Shown here: positions 1 to 27,312 of the stretch, piece after piece | Numbering within the stretch: position 1 is the stretch's first letter | How the letters are laid out: the number at the start of each line of letters is the position of its first letter | NCBI GenBank assembly: GCA_003833135.1 | Contig: QZLH01000325.1 | Span: forward strand, 20,528-57,258 | Source of the DNA: Oehlia diaphana | Lineage: Eukaryota > Glomeromycota > Glomeromycetes > Glomerales > Glomeraceae | DNA: 36,731 bases | Direction of reading: 5' to 3' | Notes under the pieces: generated by a model | Seen by the model: the letters and a program-made list of their open reading frames with translations, nothing else | Database searches by the model: none | Told to the model about the DNA's origin: nothing | Position numbers and translations under genes: made by a program

Positions 1-117
1 GGTTAAATCACCCATATCAAATTTATTAAATTATAATAAAATAATAGGTGATATCACCTGAGTTATATCACCCCCGGTTAAAACTAGTTATAATCTTAAT
101 AAATAACTTATATTTAC

Positions 118-2050
118 CAGCTTTAATAAATTACCAAATGGTTTTTTAACAAAAAAAATTTAATTAGTTTAATTATAACTAGATATTAATATATAAATCC
201 ATAATGATAAATTATATATTAAATACTAACTCCCTATATTATTAAAATAAAAAAATATAAAAAATTAATTAATTTAAATATTATATAATTATTATTTAGT
301 AATTAAGTTAAATAAACTAATAACTTACAGCCTATATGATTAAATATTTTTTTAAATAAAGTTTAGTTAATATATATATATTATATTATTAATACTGTAT
401 ATAATAATACATACCAACTATAATAAATAGTTACCACAATAATATTAGTTTAATTATATATAAATATTATAAATATATTATTAAATTAAATAAGTAATTT
501 ATAACTTACTAACTATAATAAATTAAATAAAATTTAAATAAATTTAGTTAATTTAATTATATATAAATATTATTGTAATAATTAAATACTTACTACCTAT
601 AATAAATTATCAAAATAATATTTTAAATAAAAATTTAGTTAGTTCAAATTTATTATAATAATATATAACAATAAATTTAAATAAATAACTTACTCCCTAA
701 ATAAAAATTTAGTTAATTTAATAATATATAAGATTATTATAATTATATAAATATATTGCAATAAAGTTAAATAAATAACTTACATACTATATAATTAAAT
801 ATTTATTTGAATATTAATATAATTAAATTATGTAAATACAAATAAAAATATAATAATAAAACTAAATAATAACTTACTTTCTACATTATTAAGTGAATAA
901 TTTAATTTAATTTAGTATATAAAAACTCCATATATTAAAAAAATGACTTATACTTACTAACTATAAATAATTGCAAAATAATTTTAAATAAAAAATTTAG
1001 TTAGTTTATATTACAACCATTATACCATAAATAATAATTATTAATAAACTTGAAATTGAATAAATAACTTACATTCTAATGAATTTTTAAATTAAAAAGG
1101 TTAGTTAAATTAAATAATATATACTAATAATATAATTAAATAAATAACTTACGTTCTATATATATTATTAATTAAAAATAAATTTAGTAAATTTAAGTAT
1201 TAAAAATATGTAGTAATAATTAGATAAATAATTCAACTTACCATCTATAATATAATGTTAAATAATTTTTTAAATAAATATTTAATTAGTTTATTTATAT
1301 ATAAATATTTTATAACAAAATTAAAAAATAACTTACAATCTACATTATTAAAAAAAATTAGTTAGTTATGGATATATAAATATAATAATAATTTGAATAA
1401 ATACTAACCTTCTATATTTTTAAATAAAAAATTTAGTTATTTTAAATTATATATGTAAATATTATTTATATAAAATATGTAATAATAATAAATAGATAAT
1501 TACTTACTACCATATTATTAATAATTTTTAAATAAATAATTAAGATAATTTAATTATATATATATAAATTATTAAATAAATTTTAATTAAAAATTTAATT
1601 AGTTTTAATTATATTATGATAATATAAATAATTATTTAATAACAGATAAAATTAATAATTCATAACTTACTAGCTATATTAAATAAATAAATAATTTTTA
1701 AATAAAATTTAATTAATTCAAAATATGTAAATGTTATGTTATTACATATTATAATGAATAACTTACTTTCTATATTATTATAAATAAAAAATAAAAAAAA
1801 TATTAGTTTAATTAATTGAATAATAAAAATAATAAAATTAAATAAATATGTGACTTACTGTCTATAAATAAATAAATAATTTTTTTAAATAAACTTTAGT
1901 TATTTAAATAATATTATATAAATTTATGATAATAAATTAAATAACTTACACTCTATATTATTAAATAGTTTGTTAAGTATAAAATTTAATTAGTTTAAGT
2001 TATAGAAATAACAAAAAAAATTAAATAAATAATTTATAACTTACGGCCAA
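118..2050 (-). CDS. Microexons, section A (21 units): juxtamembrane tail, then a second hydrophobic start
   Basis: Positions and minus-strand exons: 118 CTG, 231 GGA, 329 GCT, 415 TTG, 510 TTA, 594 GTA, 694 GGA, 784 TAT, 878 AAA, 958 TTA, 1073 AAT, 1153 AAC, 1242 ATG, 1337 ATT, 1409 AAG, 1508 GTA, 1671 CTA, 1767 AAA, 1859 ACA, 1950 AGT, 2045-2050 TTGGCC (6 nt). They read VGQYKTSKDYEQFK followed by IWSIIGWT. The 1508 unit lacks an AG acceptor (ATATG). If it is skipped, its Ser is lost but the flanking Thr and Lys codons and the frame survive. Donors at 231 and 1409 are GTTAGT and at 415 GTATGT. The interval 1511-1670 is nearly twice a unit and may hold a decayed one. The series continues off the window. 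Confidence 0.72.
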
Positions 2051-5000
2051 CTATAATAAATTATTAAAATAAAATATTTAATTAGTTTAATTATATGTAG
2101 TATGCTATAATACGGTACATAAATAAATCTAAATAAATAACTTAACAACTTACCAACTAAAATAAATTACCAAATGATTTTTAAATAAAATATTAATTAG
2201 TTTAAATTGGTTACAGCATGGAACGACCTCCCGACAGGACATTTGCCTAACAGTTTTGGCCAGAGTTATGCACGAAATGTGATCAAAACAGCCAGCGTTA
2301 GTCTGTTGGAAAATGTCCTGTCGGGAAACTGTCCGTAGGCAGTTTAAATTATAAATTACTTGCGAATATTATATAATAGTAGTAACTTACTTCCTATATC
2401 ATTAAAAATAAAGAATTTAATAAGTATAAATTATATGTAAATATTAATAAATAACTTGTAACTTACCAACTATAATAAGTTGCCAAATAGTTTTTAAATA
2501 AAAAAATTTGATTAGTTTAAATTATATATAATAAAATTAAATAATAGACTTATACTTTACCAACTATGATATAATTTTTTAAATAAAAAGTTAATTAATT
2601 AAAATTTATGTAAGTATAATAATAAAATTAATAATTTATAACTTACGACCTATAATAAATTATAAAGTAATTTTTAATTTGATTTAATTTAATTATATGA
2701 TAAAAATATAATATAATGATATAATTATATAAATGACTTACACACTATATAATGTAATATTTAATAATAAAAATGATTAATTAGTTTAAATTATATTTAT
2801 AAGATTAAATAAATAACTTATAACTTACCAGCTATAATAAATTATTAATAAAAAATTTGATTAACTTAATTGTGTGCAAATATTATTTAAATACATAATA
2901 ATAGAATTAAATAAATATTTTATAACTTACTGACTATAATAATAATAGTTTATTAAATATTTTTTTTAAATAAAAATTTAATTAGTTAAATAAATTATAT
3001 ATTAATATTATATAAATATAATAATAAAGTCAATAAATAATTTATAACTTACCAACTATTAAATAATTTTTTTGAATAAAAAATTGTTAATTTAATTATA
3101 AAGATTATTTAATTATTTATAATTAAATAAATAATCTATAAATAATTTATAACTTACTAGCTATAATAAATTTTTAGGTAAAAATTTAATTAGTTCCAAT
3201 TATGTATAAATATATAAAATAAAATTAAATAAATAACTTATAACTTACTAACTATATCCAAATAATTTATTAAATAAAGATTTAAGTAATTTTATATTAT
3301 ATAAATATATAAATAATAAGATTGAATAAATAACTTATAACTTACTAACTATAAAAGAATTTCAATCCATTTTTTTAGGAATTAAAGTTAGTAACTTAAT
3401 TATATATAATATTATATAAATATATATAAAAATAAATAACTTACGTCCTATATTATAAATGGTAAATAAAAAATAATTAGTTTAAGCCATATATAATAAA
3501 ATTAAACAAATAATTTATAACTTACCAACTATAATAAATTACCAATAATTTTTTAAATAAAATTTAATTAATTTAAGTTATATTTATATATTATAATTAT
3601 AATTAAATAAATGACTTACCAACTATAACAAATTTTAATTATTAAATAAAAAATTTAGTTATTTTAATAAACAATAAGTACATAACTTACCACCTATAGT
3701 AAATTATTAAATAGTATAAATTTAATTAATTTAAATTATATATAAATATTATATATTAATAGAATTAAATAAGTAATTCATAACTTACAAGCTATTATAA
3801 ATTGTTAAGTAAATTTAATAAATATAAATTATAATTTTATATAACTGAAATATGTAATAATAATTAAATAAATAACTCATAACTTACCAACTATAATAAA
3901 TTACAAATAAAAAAATTTACTTATTAAGTATTATTATAAATGTAATAAAGATATAAATAATAAAATTAAATAAATAACTAATAACTTACCAACTATGAAA
4001 ATAAATTATAAAAAATATAATTAGTATTTTATATATAATAATAATGATAAATTAAAAAATAATATAACTTACCAGCTATATATAATAAATCACAAATAAA
4101 AAAATTTAAATAATAAGTATTATTTATAAATATAATAAAGTCATATAATAATAAATTGTTAAAAATTTACCCCCTATATTAAATAAAGTTAAATAAAAAT
4201 TAATTGTATAAATATTATATAAATATATAAAATAATCAAATGAATAGTAATCCATAACTTACAATCTAGAATAATTACCAATAAAAAAGATTTAATTAAT
4301 TTAAATTATAATAAATATTATAAAATACTATATAATAATAAATTATATAAATAACTTACTTCCTATATCATTAAGTAATTTTTTAAGTAAATAAAAAATT
4401 TAAATATTTTAAATATTTTAAGTATAATAAATAAACTAAACAAATGATTTATAACTTACGGTCTAAAATACATTATTAAATAATTTTTTTAAATAAATTT
4501 AATTAGATTAAAATAAATAAATATAATAAATATTTGATAAAAATCAAATAAATAACTTACAATCTAAAAAAATTACCAATAATGTTTTAATTAAAAAATT
4601 TAATTAATTCAATTATTTATAAGTATAATATAAAGGATTTAACCCTAATATAAATATAACAAATAACTTACAATCTATTAAAATAATTATTAAATAATTT
4701 TTTAAATAAATTAGTTTAAATTTATCCATAACGAATTGTAATAAAATTAATAAATAATTTATAACTTACCAACTTTTAAATAAAAAAAATTTAATTAGTT
4801 TAAATTTATATTAATCATATTATATAATATATAATAATAAAATTAACTAAATAACTTACAAACTATATCATTAAAATAGAAATTTAATTAGTTTAAATTA
4901 TATAGATATTATATAAATATATAATAATAGAATTAACTAAATAATTTATAACTTACCATCTATAATAATTTATTAAATAAATAATTTAGTTAGATTAAGT

Positions 5001-8000
5001 AAATATTATATAAGTATTTTTTAATAAAATTAAATAAATAACTTACCATCTATAATAAGTTACGAAAAAATTTTTAATAAAAAATATAATTAAAAATATA
5101 GTTAATTTGAATTATAATAAACATTTAACAGTAAATAACTTACACCCTAATGTATTATTAATTAAATAAAAATTTAATTAGTGTAAATATTATGCAGATA
5201 TTTAATATAAAAAATATATAATTTATAACTTACGCCCTATATTAATAAATAATTATTTAAATAAGAGTTTAGTTAGTTAAATTATAAATAAACATTATAC
5301 AGGCATGAAAGAACAATTTTAAATAAATAACTTACATGCTATATTATTTATATTAATAATAAATTGTTTAATAAATTTAGTTAATTTAAATTTATTTATA
5401 TATATTGTATGAGTAATAATAGAATTAACAAATAACTTATGACTTACCAGCTAAAATAAAAATGAATTTAAATGTCAATTTTATATATAAATATAAATAA
5501 ATATTACATAAATACACAATATATAAATAATTCATAACTTACTATTTCTATAATCTAGAGAATAGTTTTTAATAAAAAATTTAGTTAATAAAAATTTAAA
5601 TTATATATAAATATATAAAAAAAGTAACTTACACCCTATATTATGAATAATTTAGATAAAGTTTAATTAATATAAATATTAGTATTTAAATAAATAATGG
5701 TGTAGTTAACCGAAAAATAATTAGCCGCAGCGTGATCCGGACCCGGCTCAGGCGTAGATTGTTGTGGAATTCCAGGGGATTTTCTGAGATTTAAACCGGG
5801 TTCGGATGATCGGCAATTAGGAATTCGGCTCAATTTTTCGGCCAACTACACCATTATTATAAAAAAATATATATATACTGTATTTTATTTATTTTAAATA
5901 AATAATTTATAACTTACACCCTATATTATTAAATAATTATTTTAATAAAAGAATTTATAAATAAGCAACACAAATATATAGTAATAGATAACTTACACTC
6001 TATATTATAAATAATTATTTAAATAAGAATCTAGTTAGTCTTAAATTATAAATAATCGAACATGAATAATAATTTAAAATAAATAACTTACTTTCTATAT
6101 TATTAAATATATTTTGAGTAAAAATTTTGTTAATTTAAATTATGCACAAATATTATATAAACGGATAATATTGAAATAAATAAATAATAACTTACTTTCT
6201 ATATTATTATTAAATAATTTTTTTAAATAAATAATTTAATTAATTTAAATTATATATAAATTTTATATAAATATGTAATAATAGAAACAAATAATTTACT
6301 TTCTATTATATTAATAAATAATTATTTTAAATAAATAATTTAATTAGCTTAAATTAAATATAAATATAGCACAAATATATTTAAATAAATAATTTATAAC
6401 TTACCGACTTATATTGAATAATTTTAAATAAATGAATGAATAAATAAAGAATTTAATTAGTTTAAATTAGTAATATAAATATAACATAAATGTACAATAA
6501 TGAAATTAAATAAACTTACAATCTAAATAAATTATCAAATAGTTTTTTAGAGATAATTAATTATATAAATATAATTAACAGATATGTAATAAAAAAATTA
6601 AATAAATAGCTTATAACTTACAATCTAAATTATCATAAATAAAGAATTTATTAGTTTATGTAAAACATGCAATAATATACACCTCCGTTTTGTGGGCGCG
6701 GTTTTATTAATCACATGACTTGCGATATAGTGTGACATTTATTTGTCAATGTACATGTGACTAACGAGAACGCGCAAGTATATTTATCTCAGCGACACTG
6801 TTTTTTAGTCTAATGCCTATTTGTCACGCCCGTGATGAAAAACCCGCGCTCACAAGAAGGGAGCGCATAGAAATAAATAAATAACTTATAACTTACCAAC
6901 TAAAATAAATTATCAAATGATTTTCAAAATAAAGAAATTAATTAGTATGCAAATATAATATAAATATGTAATAATAAATAACTTACTCCCTAAAAAATAA
7001 TTAAATAATTTTAAGTCAATAAAGAATTTAGTTTAAATATTATAAAAATAGTATGTAATAATAAATTGAATAAGTAATTTATAACTCACTTTCTATATTA
7101 TTACGTAATTTTTAAATAAAATTTAGTTAGCTTATATTACATGTAGACTCAACATTGTATAAAAATATATTATATAAATATATAACTTACCAACTATAAT
7201 GAATTACCAAATGATTTTAAATAAAATTTAGTCAAATTTAAAACATATAGGTAACAGAAATATAACTTACACCCTGTAATTTATTAATTATTAATTAATT
7301 AAATATAAATATTATTACGGCCAGTTCTCGATATAACGAACTCGAAATTTCGCATCACGTGACATTTAACTATCTTTTAATTCATAATGGTGTAGTTAGC
7401 CGAAAACGGAACCGAATTCCTGATTGCCGATCATCCGGACCAGGTTTAATCGCAGTAAATCTCCTGGAATTCTACGACGATCTACGCCTGAGCCAGGTCC
7501 AGATCACGTTGCGGCTAATTATTTTTCGGCTAACTACACCACCATTATAAATAAATCCTCAGCCTAAACAACAAAATGTTGGAAATTCAAAGGAAAAGGA
7601 AACTTTCAAACCAAGCTAACATTAACAATGAAGTACGTGACAATTAAATTTCTTAAATTCTTTAAATTCTTTGCAATAATCATAACGAATTTGAAGTGAA
7701 GGTGGAGGGTTCGTTATATTGAGAGTTGACTGCACAAAGATATAATATATAAAATTAAATGTATAACTTACAATCTGATCATTATTTAAATAAAGAATAC
7801 AATTAGTTTGAATTAAATGTAAAATATTAAGTAAATAAATAATTTACCATCTATTTTTGAAATATCGTTATTTTTCTTTTCATTATTATTTTGATCCTCA
7901 TTATCATTGTTATCATTGTTATTGTTATTGTTATTGTTATTCTCTTCCATATTAAATAATTATTTAAATAAAGAATTTGTTATTCGAATATCATGTAAGA

Positions 8001-8509
8001 TACAATAAAAAATAAATAAATGATAACTTACCAACTGTAGTTTTATTAATAAATTTAATCGTAAAAATATAATAAAAATAAATAATTCAATCAAATTACA
8101 AGAAACTTAATGACTTACGATCTAAATGGTTAAAAAAAAAAATAATTTATAGTTAGTTTAGATACGTGTATCATATAAGGTATAATAGAACTAAGAAACT
8201 TTGTTTTTATTTAATAATTCAGCAAAAATTTTGATTGTCCGGAGCGAAACGAATTAACAAAGATTATGAAAAATTTGTGGTCACGGGTGGTTCTCTGTCG
8301 CACACGTGATCGATAGCCAATAAAGTCGCAAAATATTTTTTTTCCGGGTTCCGTTCCCGTTCCAGATTGTTAGGTATATTATATTTACCTATAAATTCCT
8401 CGGTACTTGCTGAAACTAGGTTTAATATATCGCAAATTTGTTTTAAAATTTTAAATATGTATTAAATATTCATGATATGTGTTTTACCTTCGTCATTACT
8501 GTGAGCCAT
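118..8509 (-). CDS. Membrane protein gene made of >=76 exons, 72 of them 3 nt long (partial, runs off left edge)
   Basis: I do not recognise the protein. The start ATG is at 8509-8507 (minus), in a good context (A at -3). Exons 1 (22 nt) and 2 (21 nt) set phase 1. Then 74 units follow, each a yAG, a tiny exon and GTAAGT (variants GTAAAT, GTTAGT, GTATGT, GTAAAG, GTGAGT), separated by AT-rich introns of about 70-110 nt when free of transposons. Many introns carry CTAAC/CTAAT-like branch sites. Tiny exons are 3 nt, except one of 6 and one of 12. Joined, they give 277 nt (92 codons plus 1 nt) with no stop: an acidic start (MAHSNDEASTEEFI), an aromatic/basic region, a hydrophobic helix at about residues 51-72 (includes VVGLITIVTV), then QYKTSKDYEQFK and the start of another hydrophobic stretch at the window edge. 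The phase, absence of stops and membrane helix are read from the sequence. That all units are spliced is inference. An alternative is a decayed intron array, but that would not explain the open frame. Confidence 0.8.
2154..4075 (-). CDS. Microexons, section B (20 units): the transmembrane segment, one codon per exon
   Basis: Positions and minus-strand exons: 2154 TTG, 2391 GAA, 2467 TTG, 2561 TTG, 2647 GTC, 2742 TGT, 2829 CTG, 2931 TCA, 3053 TTG, 3158 CTA, 3249 TTA, 3346 TTA, 3445 GAC, 3526 TTG, 3620 TTG, 3691 GTG, 3789 CTT, 3888 TTG, 3990 TTG, 4073 CTG. Phase-1 translation is AVVACVVGLITIVTVCLVGI, an uninterrupted hydrophobic helix of membrane-spanning length, preceded by YYRNW and followed by VGQYK. 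All twenty exons are exactly 3 nt. Most donors are GTAAGTTA (2561 is GTAAAG). The intron 2157-2390 carries a MITE. Confidence 0.78.
2209..2342. mobile_element. MITE with CCCGACAGGACATTT inverted repeats, 8-bp target duplication
   Basis: A GC-richer insert of about 134 bp in an intron of the microexon gene. Inverted repeats share CCCGACAGGACATTT near both ends. The flanks show a direct repeat TTTAAATT (2201-2208 and 2343-2350), consistent with an hAT-like 8-bp target duplication, although that string is also native to the array. There is no coding capacity. Neighbouring triplets at 2154 and 2391 are intact. Confidence 0.7.
4171..5635 (-). CDS. Microexons, section C (16 units): residues WYYRNTAWRYDVFDYYRNW
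   Basis: Positions and minus-strand exons: 4171 GGG, 4263 ATT, 4360 GAA, 4460 ACC, 4561 ATT, 4672 ATT, 4770 TTG, 4860 TTT, 4957 ATG, 5047 ATG, 5144 GGT, 5234 GGC, 5336 CAT, 5448 CTG, 5543-5554 (12 nt, ATTATAGAAATA), 5633 GGT. Read in phase 1 they code for an aromatic and charged segment just ahead of the membrane helix. GGT/GGC/GGG after a T gives Trp and ATT/ATG after a T gives Tyr, a pattern unlikely in random AT-rich spacer. The 4770 acceptor is AAAAG, and 4171 uses a GTAAAT donor. The intron 5636-5917 contains a MITE. Confidence 0.75.
5697..5854. mobile_element. MITE family 1, copy 1 (TA target, TIR ATGGTGTAGTT..CCGAAAA)
   Basis: A 158-bp element flanked by TA on both sides. The terminal inverted repeats ATGGTGTAGTTAACCGAAAA and the reverse complement of TTTTTCGGCCAACTACACCAT match over about 20 bp. 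The TA target and short TIRs indicate a Tc1/mariner-type non-autonomous element. It sits in an intron of the microexon gene. The 60-aa minus ORF across it is a by-product of its higher GC content. Confidence 0.85.
5918..8121 (-). CDS. Microexons, section D (17 units): residues DLDDWFERIDYFEKKKW
   Basis: Lowest plus-strand coordinate and minus-strand exon sequence: 5918 GGT, 5997 AGT, 6092 AAA, 6196 AAA, 6300 AAA, 6405 TCG, 6520 ATT, 6622 ATT, 6897 TTG, 6987 GGA, 7090 AAA, 7191 TTG, 7271 GGT, 7772 ATT, 7848 ATG, 8032 TTG, 8119 ATC. Transcript order is from high to low coordinate. Each exon gives two bases to finish one codon and one base to start the next. Acceptors are TAG or CAG except at 6405 (ATAAG). 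Donors at 6300 and 7848 are GTAAAT and at 7090 GTGAGT. The long introns 6625-6896 and 7274-7771 contain transposons. The 7848 unit may be part of a longer Asn-rich exon. Confidence 0.75.
6681..6868. mobile_element. MITE-like insert with TIR about TTTTGTGGGCGCGGTTTT
   Basis: An insert of about 188 bp, clearly more GC-rich than its surroundings. The left end CTCCGTTTTGTGGGCGCGG and the reverse complement of the right end, CTCCCTTCTTGTGAGCGCGG, form imperfect inverted repeats of about 30 bp. There is no ORF of interest. It lies in the intron between microexons 6622 and 6897. Confidence 0.65.
7318..7740. mobile_element. pogo/Tigger-like non-autonomous element carrying a nested MITE
   Basis: The left end CAGTTCTCGATATAACGAAC and the reverse complement of the right end, CAGTCAACTCTCAATATAACGAAC, match the TIR style of pogo-family transposons (CAGT...CTCnATATAACGAA), with TA at the left junction. 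The interior is about 260 bp plus the nested MITE and has no transposase. It occupies one intron (7274-7771) of the microexon gene. The exact right end is uncertain by a few bases. Confidence 0.65.
7387..7545. mobile_element. MITE family 1, copy 2, opposite orientation, nested in a pogo-like element
   Basis: Same TIRs and internal sequence (for example GATCATCCGGACC and GGAATTC) as the copy at 5697-5854, but inverted. TA flanks both ends (7385-7386 and 7546-7547). The right TIR has 3 extra bases (CCACCAT). It lies inside the element at 7318-7740, so it inserted later. The 63-aa plus ORF here is not a gene. Confidence 0.85.
7848..7943 (-). CDS. Alternative 96-nt Asn-rich version of the 7848 microexon
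   Basis: Upstream of the 3-nt exon ATG at 7848-7850 the minus strand has a stop-free (AAT AAC)n-derived stretch. It codes for poly-Asn with Asp/Glu/Lys, ending NNDISKID plus G. If the acceptor is GGAAG at 7944-7948, the exon is 96 nt, a multiple of 3, and keeps phase 1 on both sides. That acceptor is poor (GAAG, no pyrimidine). The alternative acceptor AAATAG directly before ATG fits the array pattern. Either choice, or both by alternative splicing, keeps the downstream frame. Confidence 0.4.
8233..8375. mobile_element. Possible MITE remnant in intron 2 of the microexon gene
   Basis: A GC-richer block (GTCCGGAGCGAAACG ... CCGGGTTCCGTTCCCGTTCC) interrupts the AT-rich intron. Its ends are weakly inverted copies (TCCGGAGCGAAACG versus TCTGGAACGGGAACG). 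No clear target duplication is visible, so the assignment is tentative. Confidence 0.35.
8389..8409 (-). CDS. Exon 2 of the microexon gene (21 nt, phase 1)
   Basis: It lies between a TTTCAG acceptor and a GTAAATAT donor and is 21 nt long. With the G left by exon 1 it reads A-S-T-E-E-F-I and again leaves a single G. It is the last ordinary exon before the 3-nt exons begin. The following intron is long (8122-8388) because it seems to hold a small insertion. Confidence 0.72.
   Translation of the reverse strand, partial: QVPRNL
8488..8509 (-). CDS. Exon 1 of the microexon gene (MAHSNDE + G)
   Basis: This 22-nt start exon codes for MAHSNDE and leaves one G before the 5' splice site GTAAAAC (phase 1). 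Upstream on the minus strand are a purine-rich leader and a TATA-like stretch. The next possible exon begins about 80 nt downstream after TTTCAG. The ATG was chosen because it is the only one that joins in frame with exon 2 and the whole triplet array. Confidence 0.75.
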
Positions 8510-20681: not shown

Positions 20682-22127
20682 TTAGTGACTCTTTTTTGCT
20701 TTATAAATTTCTAATAAATCTGAGTCTTCATCATCATAATAATGGATAAACTTTTTAATTACTCCTTTTTTTTTATATCTTTCGATTAAATCAATTAATT
20801 CATCATATCCACTTTCATCATAGTGATGATATCTTTCTATTTTAAATTTTAATAAAATAGGATGTCTACCTTCCCAATTATCAAGAAATAATTTTAAAGA
20901 TTCTAATTTAGGATTGTCATTAGTATATTTGAAAGCGAATTCAAATAAACTAGGTGGTGATGATTTAGCTAAAATGTTGAATAAATTATCCCAAGAATAT
21001 CTTTCATGATCAACGTTGTAATAAAAATAAATACAAAAATCCAATCTTTTTAAATGTTGACAATTAATTAATAATTTTTCAAAATCTATATTATTCTTAT
21101 TCTTATATAAAAATTCAAGATACATAAGGTCTGGACAATTTTGATAAATAGCCTGAATAAATTTTTTATCATCAATCACAGTTACCGCATCATGATTATG
21201 ATGATAATAAATTTTAATGAGATTTCTGCCAGAACTTTCAATTAAATTTATCAAATAATTAATTGGTATGTCACAAGCGATTAAAGTATGTAAGGAAGGT
21301 AAAGTTAAATCTTTTATATTATCCCATTCCAATTTAACAAATGGACTAGCATTTATCAATTTTAGAATTTTCAAATTTACGAAAGAAGTAAGAACTTTCG
21401 TTTTAGGTTGTTCCCATGTACTAAAATATTGTATAGTATCCGCATGTTTGATCAATGAATTTTCAATAATTTTACGTGAAGACCTTCTCCTATTTAGAAA
21501 ACTAATAATAAATAATTCTTTTTGATTTTCAATTAACTTAGCAATTTGATAATTATAATCATTCTCATAAGAATAAATTTTCAATTCTTTAATAGATTTG
21601 CATGTTTTCGTCAATATTGATAAAGTATTATCATTTACTTTACCATTACATTTAAGGAATACTATTTCTGAAAAACACTGTTCAACTTCAGGAATGAGAT
21701 GATAGTCATGATTATTGGGCATATAAAGATGTGTATAATCTGCATTTTTATTAATAAAAAGTTTGAGTACATCATTTCTAAATTCTTCATATTGAATATA
21801 TTTATTCATCATATTTTCGATTACTTCTAGATTTAAATGTCTACAAAAACTTATATAATTAAACAAAGGTTTCTTATATGAATTTGTAAAAAAATTAAAG
21901 TGATGATCTAAATTAGTTCTTGCTTCATCTGATAAATGTGAAATAATTACGTTTAATAATATTTCCTTCTTCCAAAGAGTTGAATGTTTCCAAGGATTTC
22001 TCCACAAAATTGGAATAACTATTTCACACCAAATTTTATTAACTCTAAGACATGAAGCAAGAGATTTTTTGTCATGATGCAATTCTTCAAATATCAGATA
22101 AAGAATATCTCTATATAATATTGACAT
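20682..22127 (-). CDS. F-box protein with LRR-like C-terminus (481 aa, intronless)
   Basis: A single open frame codes for 481 residues. Residues 1-46 form an F-box (LYRDILYLIFEEL, then SLASCLRVNKIWCEIVIPIL, then WRNPW), the motif that binds Skp1 in SCF ubiquitin ligases. The rest contains spaced leucine-rich segments (for example LKILKLINASPF, LPSLHTLIACDIP, CPDLMYLEFL, CQHLKRLDF), the usual substrate-recognition region in this large fungal family. Length and layout match the lineage-expanded F-box proteins of Glomeromycotina. The start is the first ATG, just downstream (in gene orientation) of an A/T homopolymer next to the assembly gap, so the promoter is not fully visible. The frame is intact with no introns. 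The substrate is unknown. Confidence 0.85.
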   Translation of the reverse strand: MSILYRDILYLIFEELHHDKKSLASCLRVNKIWCEIVIPILWRNPWKHSTLWKKEILLNVIISHLSDEARTNLDHHFNFFTNSYKKPLFNYISFCRHLNLEVIENMMNKYIQYEEFRNDVLKLFINKNADYTHLYMPNNHDYHLIPEVEQCFSEIVFLKCNGKVNDNTLSILTKTCKSIKELKIYSYENDYNYQIAKLIENQKELFIISFLNRRRSSRKIIENSLIKHADTIQYFSTWEQPKTKVLTSFVNLKILKLINASPFVKLEWDNIKDLTLPSLHTLIACDIPINYLINLIESSGRNLIKIYYHHNHDAVTVIDDKKFIQAIYQNCPDLMYLEFLYKNKNNIDFEKLLINCQHLKRLDFCIYFYYNVDHERYSWDNLFNILAKSSPPSLFEFAFKYTNDNPKLESLKLFLDNWEGRHPILLKFKIERYHHYDESGYDELIDLIERYKKKGVIKKFIHYYDDEDSDLLEIYKAKKSH

Positions 22128-22136
22128 TTTTAATTA

Positions 22137-22171: not shown

Positions 22172-22473
22172 GTTTTTATTTTTTTTTTTTNNNNNNNNNN
22201 NNNNNNNNNNNNNNNNNNNNNNNNNNNNNNNNNNNNNNNNNNNNNNNNNNNNNNNNNNNNNNNNNNNNNNNNNNNNNNNNNNNNNNNNNNNNNNNNNNNN
22301 NNNNNNNNNNNNNNNNNNNNNNNNNNNNNNNNNNNNNNNNNNNNNNNNNNNNNNNNNNNNNNNNNNNNNNNNNNNNNNNNNNNNNNNNNNNNNNNNNNNN
22401 NNNNNNNNNNNNNNNNNNNNNNNNNNNNNNNNNNNNNNNNNNNNNNNNNNNNNNNNNNNNNNNNNNNNNNNNN
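22145..22473. other. T homopolymer followed by an assembly gap (283 N)
   Basis: A poly-T run (22145-22190, with one G and one A) leads into N from 22191 to 22473. ORFs reported across it are artefacts. The sequence right of the gap is a copy of the repeat at 23755, so the gap probably reflects a collapsed or unresolved repeat. Confidence 0.95.
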
Positions 22474-23469: not shown

Positions 23470-23625
23470 CCAGATCTGAATGGGTCAGATTAACCCAGGT
23501 GACCCAATAGGTTGACCCAAAAAATTTGGGTTGGGTAGCAAATTTAATAACCCAACCTTGGATCAGGTCAGTCACAAGTTGGGTACCTGACCTGACCTGT
23601 TGACCTGATATATTTTGAGTCAAAA
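23470..23625. repeat. GGGTCAGGTCA/TGACCCA inverted-repeat element
   Basis: Clusters of TGACCC, GGGTTGGGT, AACCCAACC, CAGGTCA and TGACCTGACC occur on both strands and fold back on each other. The same vocabulary appears in the insert at 25122-25594, suggesting one family. The 68-aa minus ORF over it is not a gene. Confidence 0.55.
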
Positions 23626-23754
23626 AAAGACATTTCAGCATTTTTTATATATAAAAAATGCCAATCCATTTTTTTGAACTGAATCTGACGTTTATTCATA
23701 AAAATAATAATAATAAATGTCTTTTTTAATTAAAAAAAAATAAAAAATGTTTTT

Positions 23755-24120
23755 TTAATGAAAAAATGCCAAACCCAGCATTTTTCGAGTCAAAAAAAGT
23801 AGAAGTCCATTAAATGAATAAAAAATGTCAAATTTGATGTTTTTCTATTAAATGAATCAAAAAAAAAAAAACATTTTTTCATTAAATGAATAAAAAAATG
23901 TTTTTTTAATGAAAAAATGCCAAACTCAGCATTTTTTGAATCAAAAAAAGTTGAAGTCCATTAAATGAATAAAAAATGTCAAATTTGATGTTTTTCTATT
24001 AAATGAATCAAAAAAAAACATTTTTTCATTAAATGAATAAAAAAAATGTTTTTTTAATGAAAAAATGCTAAACCTGACATTTTTCATTAAATGAATCAAA
24101 AAAACATTTTTTTAATGAAA
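23755..24120. repeat. Tandem repeat, about 130-150 bp unit, 2.5 copies
   Basis: Units start with TTTTTTTAATGAAAAAATGC (near 23750, 23905 and 24050) and contain TTAAATGAATAAAAAATGTC and TTTGATGTTTTTCTATTAAA. The third copy is shortened. The palindromic ATTTTTTCATTAAATGAAT pieces recur in each. Confidence 0.7.
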
Positions 24121-24394
24121 CAGAGTTATACCCTAGGGCCGGTGACTGGCCCTTACTAAAAGTATGATATATACCATAAATTTTAACACTTATTTGCAGA
24201 AACAATAATATTGGTAATATATAATTTATTTTTTTTTCATTTAAAATAATTTAATTTATTGTTCTTTTGCATTTTGATTTAATAATCTTGTAATTGGCTT
24301 TAAAAAAAGAAATATTATGAATTTTTTAATTTATAAAAAACATTTAACAATTTTTATTTAAAAATTTTATATAAAATGTACATCAGGAAATTTT

Positions 24395-24612
24395 TTAGGG
24401 TGCAGATCTGTGAAGAACTGCAAAATTTACAGTTCTCTGCATTTTTTTTTGCACTTTTTAATGCATTTCTGCGAAGTTCTGCGAATTTTGCAATTTTGCA
24501 GATTACCGCAGAAATTTTTTATAAAATTTGCAAAATTCTGCAATTTTACAGATTTCTGCAGATTGATTAAAAAAATTCTGCAGTAATCTGCAAAATTGCA
24601 GAATCTGCAGCT
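24395..24612. repeat. Foldback element rich in CTGCA/TTTGCA
   Basis: Many TCTGCA, CTGCGAA and TTTTGCAGA blocks. The segment at about 24482-24525 is an inverted copy of 24567-24611 (both carry TCTGCAATTTTGCAGATTAC or its near match), giving a strong hairpin. The small ORFs here and on the opposite strand are by-products. Confidence 0.6.
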
Positions 24613-25594: not shown

Positions 25595-26572
25595 TGCGAA
25601 TTTTGGTCTTTTTTTCATTTTTTTTTTTAATATTAATAAATGGTTACTAATAACCATACTTTATTTTTTTAGGTCTGGTGGACTTCCAAAAAATGAAAAC
25701 CCAAAGTTTTGTAAATACGAAACTTTATTTTTTTTATTTTTCTTTAATATTAACAAATAGTTACTCATAACCGTTCTTTCTTTATTTTTTTAGGTCTGGT
25801 GGGCTTCTAAAAAATGAAAACCCAAAGTTTCGTAAGTATGAAACTATTTTTTATTTTTTTTTAATATTAATGAACGGGTACTAATAACCATTCTTTTCTT
25901 TATTTTTTAGGTCTGGTGGGCTTCCAAAGAATGAAAACCCAAAGTTTTGTAAGTACAAAACTTTTTTTTGTTTTTTTTTTAATATTAATGGATGGTTACT
26001 AATAACTGTTCTTTTTCTTTATTTTTTTAGGTTTGGTGGGCTTCTAAAGAATGAAAACCCAAAGTATGAAACTATTTTTTTATTTTTTTTAATATTAATG
26101 AATGTTTACTAATAACTGTTTTTTTTTATTTTTTAGGTCCAGTAGGCTTCCAAAAAATGAAAACCCAAAGTTTTGTAAGTACAAAACTTTTTTTATTTTT
26201 TTTAATATTAATGGATGGTTACTAATAACTGTTCTTTTTCTTTATTTTTTTAGGTCAGGTGGGCTTCTAAAGAATGAAAACCCAAAGTTTCGTAAGTACA
26301 AAACTTTTTTTATTTTTTTTAATATTAATGGATGGTTACTAATAACTGTTCTTTTTCTTTATTTTTTTAGGTCAGGTGGGCTTCTAAAGAATGAAAACCC
26401 AAAGTTTCGTAAGTACAAAACTTTTTTTATTTTTTTTAATATTAATGGATGGTTACTAATAACTGTTCTTTTTCTTTATTTTTTTAGGTCAGGTGGGCTT
26501 CTAAAGAATGAAAACCCAAAGTTTCGTAAGTATGAAACTATTTTTTTATTTTTTTTTAATATTAATAAATGG

Positions 26573-27312
26573 TGTCACCCACGTCTGCCACTCATGGATA
26601 AACAAGTATTCTAATAATCATTCTTATTGTACTTTATTTTGCTTGGTTTAGTTTTTATTTTCTTTTTGAACTTAAATTTCAAACTGCAATAGTTTTCCCT
26701 TCTTTTATGACTAATGTTGTTCTTTTGGACTACAAAACCTAGAGAGTTTATGCCTTTCACAACTTTCATTTATTAACCATTAATCAGAGGATTAATGTGG
26801 CACATTTTCATCATAAGAAAATGGCAAAAAGAATGTGTTTGATTATTAATAAAGGATGAATTTTATTTTTGTCAAAAAGACTGCGGTTCAAAAAACTGCA
26901 GAATGCCTCTCGAATTCCACACCTATTTATAACAATTTAATAAAAATTATTCTCCTATATTCTAACTTTCTTTCAAAGATCTTACTAGAACTATAAGAAA
27001 CTATTTCTACCTATTCTCTTGCTACGCCACCTATTTCTTCTAACGACTAACTAAATAAAACTATAAATAGAACTAATCTAAAAATAAAATGAACTATTCT
27101 ATAAATAAAACTAATCTAAAAATAAATAACTATAAATAATATTGTGTAACTATATTCCATTATTTCTTCTAATTATTCTGGTTAAATATTATTCCTTTGG
27201 CTAAATGTTTATCCCTCAGTTAAATATTTATCCGTATTTCTTTTGGTATTTCATTTATTCTTCAGTTAATTATTCTTTTGATCACGTGATTAACCTGGTT
27301 TCAAGGTTTACA
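26573..27312. mobile_element. Solo LTR (740 bp) inserted in the second array
   Basis: It begins TGTCACCCACGTCTGCC and ends GGTTTACA, the usual TG...CA ends of an LTR, and interrupts a module exactly in its ATGGTTACTAATAACC hairpin. The flanks ATGG and ACGG may be a mutated 4-5 bp target duplication. There is no ORF and no second LTR nearby, so it reads as a solo LTR. The start resembles Ty3/gypsy LTRs. Confidence 0.55.

Follow-up and report, generated by a model that had tools for sequence, protein, structure and literature searches.

A stretch of 36,731 nt from the genome of the symbiotic fungus Oehlia diaphana, in the following called the window (contig C324, QZLH01000325.1, positions 20528-57258), carries on its minus strand a series of 72 predicted micro-exons, nearly all of which have the length of a single codon. 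Very probably they represent the N-terminal part of a protein kinase gene, in which all of them are spliced in order and translated in phase 1. An initial annotation, made from the letters of the window alone, had predicted a gene that is split into single-codon exons. This prediction is supported by the presence of a gene family, by the stop-free order of neighboring triplets, and by a kinase domain that lies in frame downstream. It needs correction in two respects, namely, the array is likely to encode an N-terminal arm, with the kinase body situated to the left of the window, and the copy in the window may have lost its function. The phase-1 frame, the continuation into a kinase, and the gene family go beyond the initial annotation.

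In positions 1-8509 of the window, the minus strand contains 65 GTAAGT motifs in total, and 62 of them occur in the arrangement AG-N3-GTAAGT. Other distances between AG and GTAAGT, counted from 0 to 24 nt, are found zero to two times each, and the spacing of 0 nt that characterizes ratchet points does not occur in the array (no AG-N0-GTAAGT). A search with a splice-site model, which had been trained on such units but is blind to exon length, returned a chain of 72 exons from 8121 to 231, of which 70 are 3 nt, one is 6 nt, and one is 12 nt long. The two longer exons had been predicted. The predicted number of 74 units was not reproduced, and the difference may be explained by a weak unit at 118-120 and by a unit near 1510 without a clear AG. 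Only 228 of the 7891 nt of the array are exonic. Tandem Repeats Finder reports the units as imperfect tandem repeats of about 100 bp.

The array is a member of a family. In the 108.8-Mb assembly, to which all genome-wide counts refer, TAG-N3-GTAAGTTAT has 1346 exact matches, compared to 46 for the reversed control, 29 for TAG-N2, and 18 for TAG-N4. A start pattern of adjacent ATT and GGT units is present at 47 places (control 0), and an end pattern, composed of a 1-nt exon and the acceptor of the kinase exon, at 44 places (control 1). By hand count, both patterns together mark 69 contigs (43 and 43, 17 shared), and C324 and C37 are additional. Thirty-one array loci were read, 20 in a first set and 11 in a held-out set, which was fetched once the hypothesis had been fixed. 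L024 (C46:209000-218900) has no array and was excluded from the counts, and of C60, C193, C76, C775, and C602, which contain long N stretches, the readable parts were kept. The length-blind chain contains 532 exons of 3 nt among 586 in the first 20 loci and 321 among 354 in the later 11. When GC donors and lengths of up to 24 nt are allowed, the first value becomes 538 of 616, which includes strays outside the arrays. The number of one-codon exons per locus ranges from 5 to about 75. In the first 20 loci, introns of at most 130 nt have a median length of 92 nt (5-95% range 75-111).

The splice signals are equally regular. After the 3-nt exons of the first set, the donor is GTAAGT in 448 of 538 cases and GCAAGT in five. 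Of 470 introns, 289 have the predicted branch-like motif CTAAY at a distance of 15-60 nt upstream of the acceptor (63.9 in shuffled sequences), ACTAA precedes the acceptor in 347 (46.4 in shuffled sequences), and an internal AG within the last 40 nt is depleted (24 introns versus 120.6 expected). In their donors, their branch motifs, and their AG exclusion, the putative array introns carry the marks of ordinary U2 introns.

The start exons of seven printed loci read MAHSNDE, MAQSNDK, MALSNDK, or, in C46b and C54, MDQYI, and end in phase 1. The conventional start exon that had been proposed for the window, with its ATG at 8509, thus has counterparts of like type in six other loci. Exon 2 is short, hydrophilic, and phase-1-keeping in six of the seven, and the start of C403 follows the same plan. 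In several relatives exon 2 starts with VS, e.g., VSSSTKEF and VSGNIEFEG in the public proteins P0030 and P0012, respectively. A 1-nt exon, usually A (AG, A, GTAAGT), follows the array in 16 of the 20 first-set loci, and C324 also has one. The next exon is of an ordinary kind and has to be entered in phase 2, in which it reads (E)FGKSGN...WIPYDKFKNIEYLDKGGFGTIYKA. As phase 1 plus one nucleotide yields phase 2, the exons join in frame provided that the array contributes a multiple of three nucleotides, and in intact relatives the frame does close from exon 1 via the 1-nt exon into the kinase domain. A kinase-domain match (tblastn) is present downstream on the same strand of 19 of the 20 first-set arrays; the sole array without it is that of C76, in which 4402 of 7801 bases are N.

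The frame and the order of the exons are revealed by the distribution of stop codons. In phase 1, a junction codon consists of the last base of one triplet and the first two bases of the next, which are separated by about 95 bp in the genome. The null distribution was generated by shuffling the triplet order within each locus, and only units in runs of at least two were used (530 of 538 in the first set, 320 of 321 in the later set), a unit of another length being counted as the end of a run. Across the first 20 loci there is no stop codon at 470 phase-1 junctions, compared to 24.1 expected, and all of 2000 shuffles gave at least 12. Phase 2 yields 63 stops and phase 0 three in 530 units. Reversal of the triplet order creates 27 stops at 470 junctions, and skipping of one or two exons creates 25 (20.9 expected) and 20 (18.2 expected), respectively. 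The held-out loci contain one stop at 285 junctions, where 13.8 were expected and 2000 shuffles never gave fewer than 5, so that all 31 loci together have one at 755 (37.9 expected). The window array alone has none at 61 junctions (3.49 expected, P 0.0125).

The ATT-GGT pair had been used to pick many of the loci, and after its removal one stop remains at 683 junctions (31.6 expected), while ten loci that were picked without it have none at 262 (14.9 expected). As a guard against shared ancestry, identical pairs were collapsed, and the resulting 279 distinct ordered pairs contain no stop, where 16.1 were expected and the minimum of 5000 shuffles was 6. Stops are likewise absent when each third of the arrays is taken by itself, with about eight expected, and the outcome is unchanged when AG-ambiguous 1-nt units are read as 3-nt units (1 of 691, 32.9 expected). 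In addition, tryptophan codons (TGG) formed across introns are enriched, i.e., 40 versus 23.9 expected after removal of the selecting pair (P 0.001), and drop to the chance level when exons are skipped. A first count of 73 versus 36.5 was set aside, because the selection of loci by ATT-GGT makes one such codon by design. Stop codons are thus nearly absent only in the forward order of direct neighbors, which argues that selection sees the complete, consecutive, and in-order inclusion of the triplets. Apart from selection on a series that is joined, translated, and kept in order, we are aware of no process that would give such a pattern.

Three whole-database protein searches retrieved 61 proteins (P0001-P0061), the best local identities being 90, 86, and 88%, respectively; judged by these values, the genome is probably that of a Rhizophagus-like species without entries among the listed proteins. 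The listed proteins are from Rhizophagus irregularis, R. diaphanus, and R. clarus, with one from Glomus cerebriforme, and all are kinases. Of the 38 sequences that were inspected, about 30 begin near the kinase exon (FGKSGN...), i.e., without the arm, and P0019, P0048, and P0056 have unrelated starts. P0030 opens with MAQSNDK VSSSTKEF... DLNN, which is consistent with phase 1 at the start; beyond this DLNN, a phase-1 reading of the arm was not found in the 38 of 61 sequences. The kinase body belongs to the same family as the kinase-like proteins of Rhizophagus, whereas the arm is absent, skipped, unrelated, or seemingly read in another frame there.

Several observations weigh against the reading as an ordered phase-1 series. 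One junction stop is left, in locus C865, and in the held-out loci by themselves the tryptophan excess does not reach significance (13 versus 9.2 expected, P 0.10). A second exon is not visible in C54, AG is missing from the expected exon-2 acceptor of C17, and C46b (L014 oriented 5559-6239, contig C46, plus strand) has a short array, a 2-nt unit, and a kinase match that is only a fragment; these three irregular loci may be decaying members. Several arrays have gaps of about 200 nt, in which a unit is absent or too weak to be called. Among the public models, P0001, P0010, and P0030 of R. irregularis and R. diaphanus fit a phase-0 vocabulary better than phase 1, and P0002 and P0012 of R. irregularis skip the array. 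Lastly, the gene in the window is interrupted by about 4 kb of N, and its kinase exon is frame-shifted near the start in comparison with the paralogs and does not form an open frame.

The last two points raise the question whether the window gene is a dead copy of an otherwise real family, disabled by insertions and a frameshift. We regard this as a serious possibility, only a little less probable than its opposite. Left of the window, contig C324 continues with about 4.07 kb of N, followed by four 3-nt exons, a 1-nt exon, and kinase exons. The interruption, the frameshift in the kinase exon, and insertion-like elements in the introns are what a dead copy would have. However, the array is clean, with no stop at its 61 junctions, most of its donors are intact, and the frameshift, which is situated in a homopolymer, may have arisen in the assembly. 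Furthermore, R. irregularis protein P0036 is 88% identical over 36% of a 160-residue query region. Intact paralogs exist elsewhere in the genome.

It would also be conceivable that the triplets are cassette exons, which are included in varying subsets to generate many isoforms per gene. Exons of 3 nt are frame-neutral, any subset would stay in phase, and micro-exons are often alternative in other organisms, e.g., the central exons of the schistosome micro-exon genes (MEGs) in the excerpted part of PMC10526429. Yet, stop codons appear at the chance rate as soon as exons are skipped, in all 31 loci 38 of 660 (33.3 expected) with one exon skipped and 31 of 578 (29.1 expected) with two, and therefore selection acts on the full series. 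This makes regular use of subsets improbable; some subsets may be formed as minor or noisy products.

Another reading concerns the frame, i.e., the triplets could be exons in phase 0, one complete codon each, with AGTAA as a 5-nt final exon in place of the 1-nt A. Automated gene models of R. irregularis and R. diaphanus appear to use it. The log2 values per residue for phase 0 and phase 1 are -2.89 and -4.24 for P0001, -3.14 and -5.41 for P0010, and -3.65 and -4.29 for P0030, these three proteins contain SKFGKS, SKSGKS, or SKFQES, as a 5-nt exon would give, and there are only four phase-0 stops in the 850 units of all 31 loci. The match of the three proteins to the phase-0 vocabulary suggests that the annotators chose another frame and that arrays may exist in R. 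irregularis and R. diaphanus, too. Two reciprocal controls identify phase 1 as the constrained frame. When phase-0 codons were kept and shuffled, 24.0 phase-1 stops were predicted, but none is seen; when phase-1 codons were kept and shuffled, 5.1 phase-0 stops were predicted and three are seen (P 0.18). Phase 1 alone therefore accounts for the stop numbers in both phases. Moreover, exons 1 and 2 hand over phase 1, TAA triplets are present within the arrays of C46a, C76, and C1069, and the donor after AGTAA varies by eye (GTGTTA, GTATAA, GTAATA, GTTTTG), although some of these are possibly usable. GTAAGT after the single A was part of the end search pattern and is no independent support for the 1-nt exon. 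Taken together, phase 0 is very unlikely. Hardly credible is a noncoding array, i.e., a decaying satellite of intron copies that is removed as a whole to join exon 2 to the kinase, because AT-rich and related introns, the arrays of about 100 bp seen by Tandem Repeats Finder, and the skipping of the array in P0002 and P0012 would fit, but a satellite has no reason to hold the exon length at 3 nt, to keep branch motifs and AG exclusion, or to have stop-free neighbor junctions with skipped and reversed orders at the chance level.

The predicted product of the ordered phase-1 series is a kinase with an N-terminal arm. The kinase domain of C17 matches PF07714 (E 2.5e-39) and PF00069 (E 3.8e-34) in Pfam, and by eye HCDFHDGN and ISDLGL are present in C17, C54, C52, C403, and C602. 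In C30 (L016), C58 (L017), and C1397 (L022), HYNFHNGN or HYNFHDGN is found by eye instead, and, due to these degenerate catalytic motifs, the three may be pseudokinases. By eye, the same three have a long coiled-coil-like tail beyond the kinase domain. In many loci the phase-1 arm opens with L-[DE]-[DN]-W, and the remainder is variable. In loci picked by ATT-GGT, the end of this motif is present by design; ATT-GGT is, however, also found in C324, C46b, C56, C30, C58, and C54, which had not been selected for it. The gene in the window reads MAHSNDE VSASTEEFI DLDDWFERIDYFEKKKWW YYRNTAWRYDVFDYYRNW AVVACVVGLITIVTVCLVG ... in phase 1, and its start is, by eye only, unlike a signal peptide. The AVVACVVGLITIVTVCLVG stretch has a 19-residue Kyte-Doolittle mean of 2.76, which is reached by none of 300 order shuffles. 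A membrane-like stretch is present in two of 12 scorable arrays, C324 and C46a, and is significant in phase 1. As the stretch of C324 is, by eye, hydrophobic also in phase 0, a membrane helix does not decide the frame. A Pfam search with the arm yielded only TMIE at a non-significant E of 0.71, and the window gave no hit in Rfam and tRNA scans.

With a length of 3 nt, an exon can neither be defined as such nor accommodate splicing enhancers, and there is steric overlap between the splice sites on its two sides. With AG and GTAAGT only 3 nt apart, the factors for both flanking introns could hardly be in place together, and hence we infer that the introns would be defined singly and would leave stepwise. 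Each step would attach one codon and position the next GTAAGT, which would amount to a codon-depositing variant of recursive (ratchet) splicing.

The array may have grown by duplication of modules of about 95 bp, each comprising an intron and a codon. The 470 introns have a mean pairwise score of 0.38, compared to 0.245 for 3000 shuffled pairs, and 385 of them have a relative that scores above 0.55 (shuffled maximum 0.453); the best-scoring relative is in the own locus for 103. Some loci contain block repeats, e.g., CTC TTA ATG GAA GAA in C17. Module duplication would account for the relatedness of the introns, the varying unit number, and the fixed size of 3 nt. The insertion of introners into an old exon was considered and is disfavored by the range from about 5 to 75 units per locus and by the relatedness of introns within and between loci. 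Breaks inside introns would keep the frame, so that single residues of the arm could be added, lost, or reshuffled. Where two units have nearly the same flanks, their triplets are often different, but pairs chosen in this way are a biased sample. When flanks were held out, the values for change at the three strictest thresholds were 0.27-0.31 for the triplet and 0.11-0.13 for the inner flank, and with reciprocal selection at the strictest threshold they were 0.25 for the triplet and 0.33 for the outer flank. The triplet changes faster than the inner flank, but not clearly faster than the outer one, and these values speak neither for nor against diversifying selection on the codons. The variable arm might serve the kinase as a rapidly changing segment for sensing or docking, although such a role is a guess. 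We tentatively put forward, as a possibility with rather less than even odds, that one codon per exon is a categorically new way of writing a protein, that a kinase family builds an entire arm by codon-depositing ratchet splicing, and that the intron-plus-codon module serves as a recombination cassette, by which single residues are inserted, removed, or swapped with the frame kept, resulting in hypervariable sensor arms of kinases in a symbiotic fungus.

Table 1. Features of the putative kinase gene in the window.
Feature	Position	Strand	Remarks
Exon 1, coding part, MAHSNDE	8488..8509	-	22 nt; phase 1 at end; donor GTAAAA
Exon 2, VSASTEEFI together with exon 1	8389..8415	-	27 nt; phase 1 to phase 1; acceptor by eye
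Predicted micro-exon array, 72 chained units, frame-preserving, phase 1	231..8121	-	chain search
First 3-nt exon, ATC	8119..8121	-	
GGT, 3-nt exon; forms TGG (Trp) of the L-D/E-D/N-W start motif together with the T of the ATT before it	7271..7273	-	
12-nt array exon	5543..5554	-	
6-nt array exon	2045..2050	-	
One-codon exons reading AVVACVVGLITIVTVCLVG in phase 1, predicted to span the membrane	2391..4075	-	
Last chained 3-nt exon in the window, GGA	231..233	-	
Weaker unit CTG after the last chained exon	118-120	-	
Edge of inserted stretch and N run	1..117	-	gene resumes about 4.25 kb further left on the contig

Further features were observed in the window and on the contig. At 7848-7950 (minus strand), an asparagine-rich open reading frame (ORF) extends from an ATG (MEENNNNNNNN...) into an ATG triplet exon and ends, by eye, in phase 1; as it ends in the frame of the array, it is possibly an alternative first exon. 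Two array introns contain a short, GC-richer element, GGTGTAGTTAGCCGAAAAATAATTAGCCGC..., in two copies of opposite orientation (about 7385-7560 and about 5695-5880, minus strand), which by eye look like insertions of miniature inverted-repeat transposable elements (MITEs). A second exon-like repeat array is present at 25621-26573 (plus strand), where about eight tandem copies of a unit of about 117 bp resemble an exon in an intron. This unit is composed of the branch-like motif TTACTAATAAC, a T-rich tract, AG, about 38 nt (GTCTGGTGGGCTTCTAAAGAATGAAAACCCAAAGTTTC), and GTAAGT, and its exons are not divisible by three. An F-box-like ORF of 483 amino acids is situated at 20682-22133 (minus strand; PF12937, E 6.7e-05, just under the curated cut-off), and an N run at 22191-22473. 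Further left on the contig and on the same strand as the array gene, there is another kinase (MAKANETQ...WTSGNNDID; C324 oriented 23535-24516), which is of the type usual for Rhizophagus. It has ordinary exons, and the array type is thus not common to all kinases there.

If all of the about 75 consecutive tiny-exon events are performed and included in order, such genes test the accuracy of intron definition, and they test whether introns must leave one after another. The size of the exon would become the unit of protein evolution, because unequal exchange in the introns of a module with exactly one codon would alter single residues, but never the frame. Such exons may be missed or misread by standard programs for gene prediction and read alignment. 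As about 30 of the 38 inspected public models lack the arm and the few longer ones skip or misframe it, a variable part of the symbiont kinome has probably been overlooked, and the same blind spot may conceal such genes in other organisms.

Isolated exons of 3 nt or 1 nt are already known, and so are recursive splicing and genes that contain many micro-exons. A long uninterrupted run of 3-nt exons had been called undescribed in the initial annotation, and a full-text literature search, with subscription papers and most preprints outside of its scope, indeed found no report of a long series of one-codon exons. The following comparisons draw on excerpts of the cited papers. In the fungal lipS gene two 3-nt exons have been described (PMC5639578) and in Drosophila homothorax a 3-bp exon (PMC7392893). 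Arabidopsis APC11 contains a 1-nt exon, for which the authors favor intron definition with stepwise removal (PMC4674806), and the 1-nt exon of Fusarium CYP621A was called the second to be reported and the first in a fungal gene (PMC12940212), whereas the pattern with the pre-kinase 1-nt exon matches 44 times in O. diaphana. In all these examples, the excerpts describe one or two tiny exons per gene, in contrast to dozens in series in the kinase arrays.

The MEGs of Schistosoma mansoni have 10-20 short exons, mostly of 15 bp (with a range given as 6-81 bp in the text and as 3-81 in the abstract), introns of up to 5 kb, and secreted products (PMC10526429). As far as described there, they resemble the kinase arrays in being a gene family with many short, mostly frame-neutral exons, by which annotation has been defeated; they differ from the arrays, which have near-uniform exons of 3 nt, up to about 75 in a row, introns of about 92 nt, and a kinase as product. 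The bicycle and megacycle genes of aphids have small internal exons of constant phase and encode fast-changing proteins, and megacycle genes have more than 100 micro-exons (PMC9168663). They share with the arrays the many small exons in a single phase, here phase 1 to phase 1, but the proteins are different, and the excerpt describes no 3-nt uniformity for them, exon sizes not having been looked up. The ratchet points of Drosophila, which are mostly in long introns, leave no nucleotides in the mRNA (PMC8605326). They are similar in that an acceptor nearly abuts a donor and that stepwise removal is the natural path; unlike ratchet points, each step in the arrays would leave one codon. We regard the kinase arrays as a new, extreme variant of micro-exon genes.

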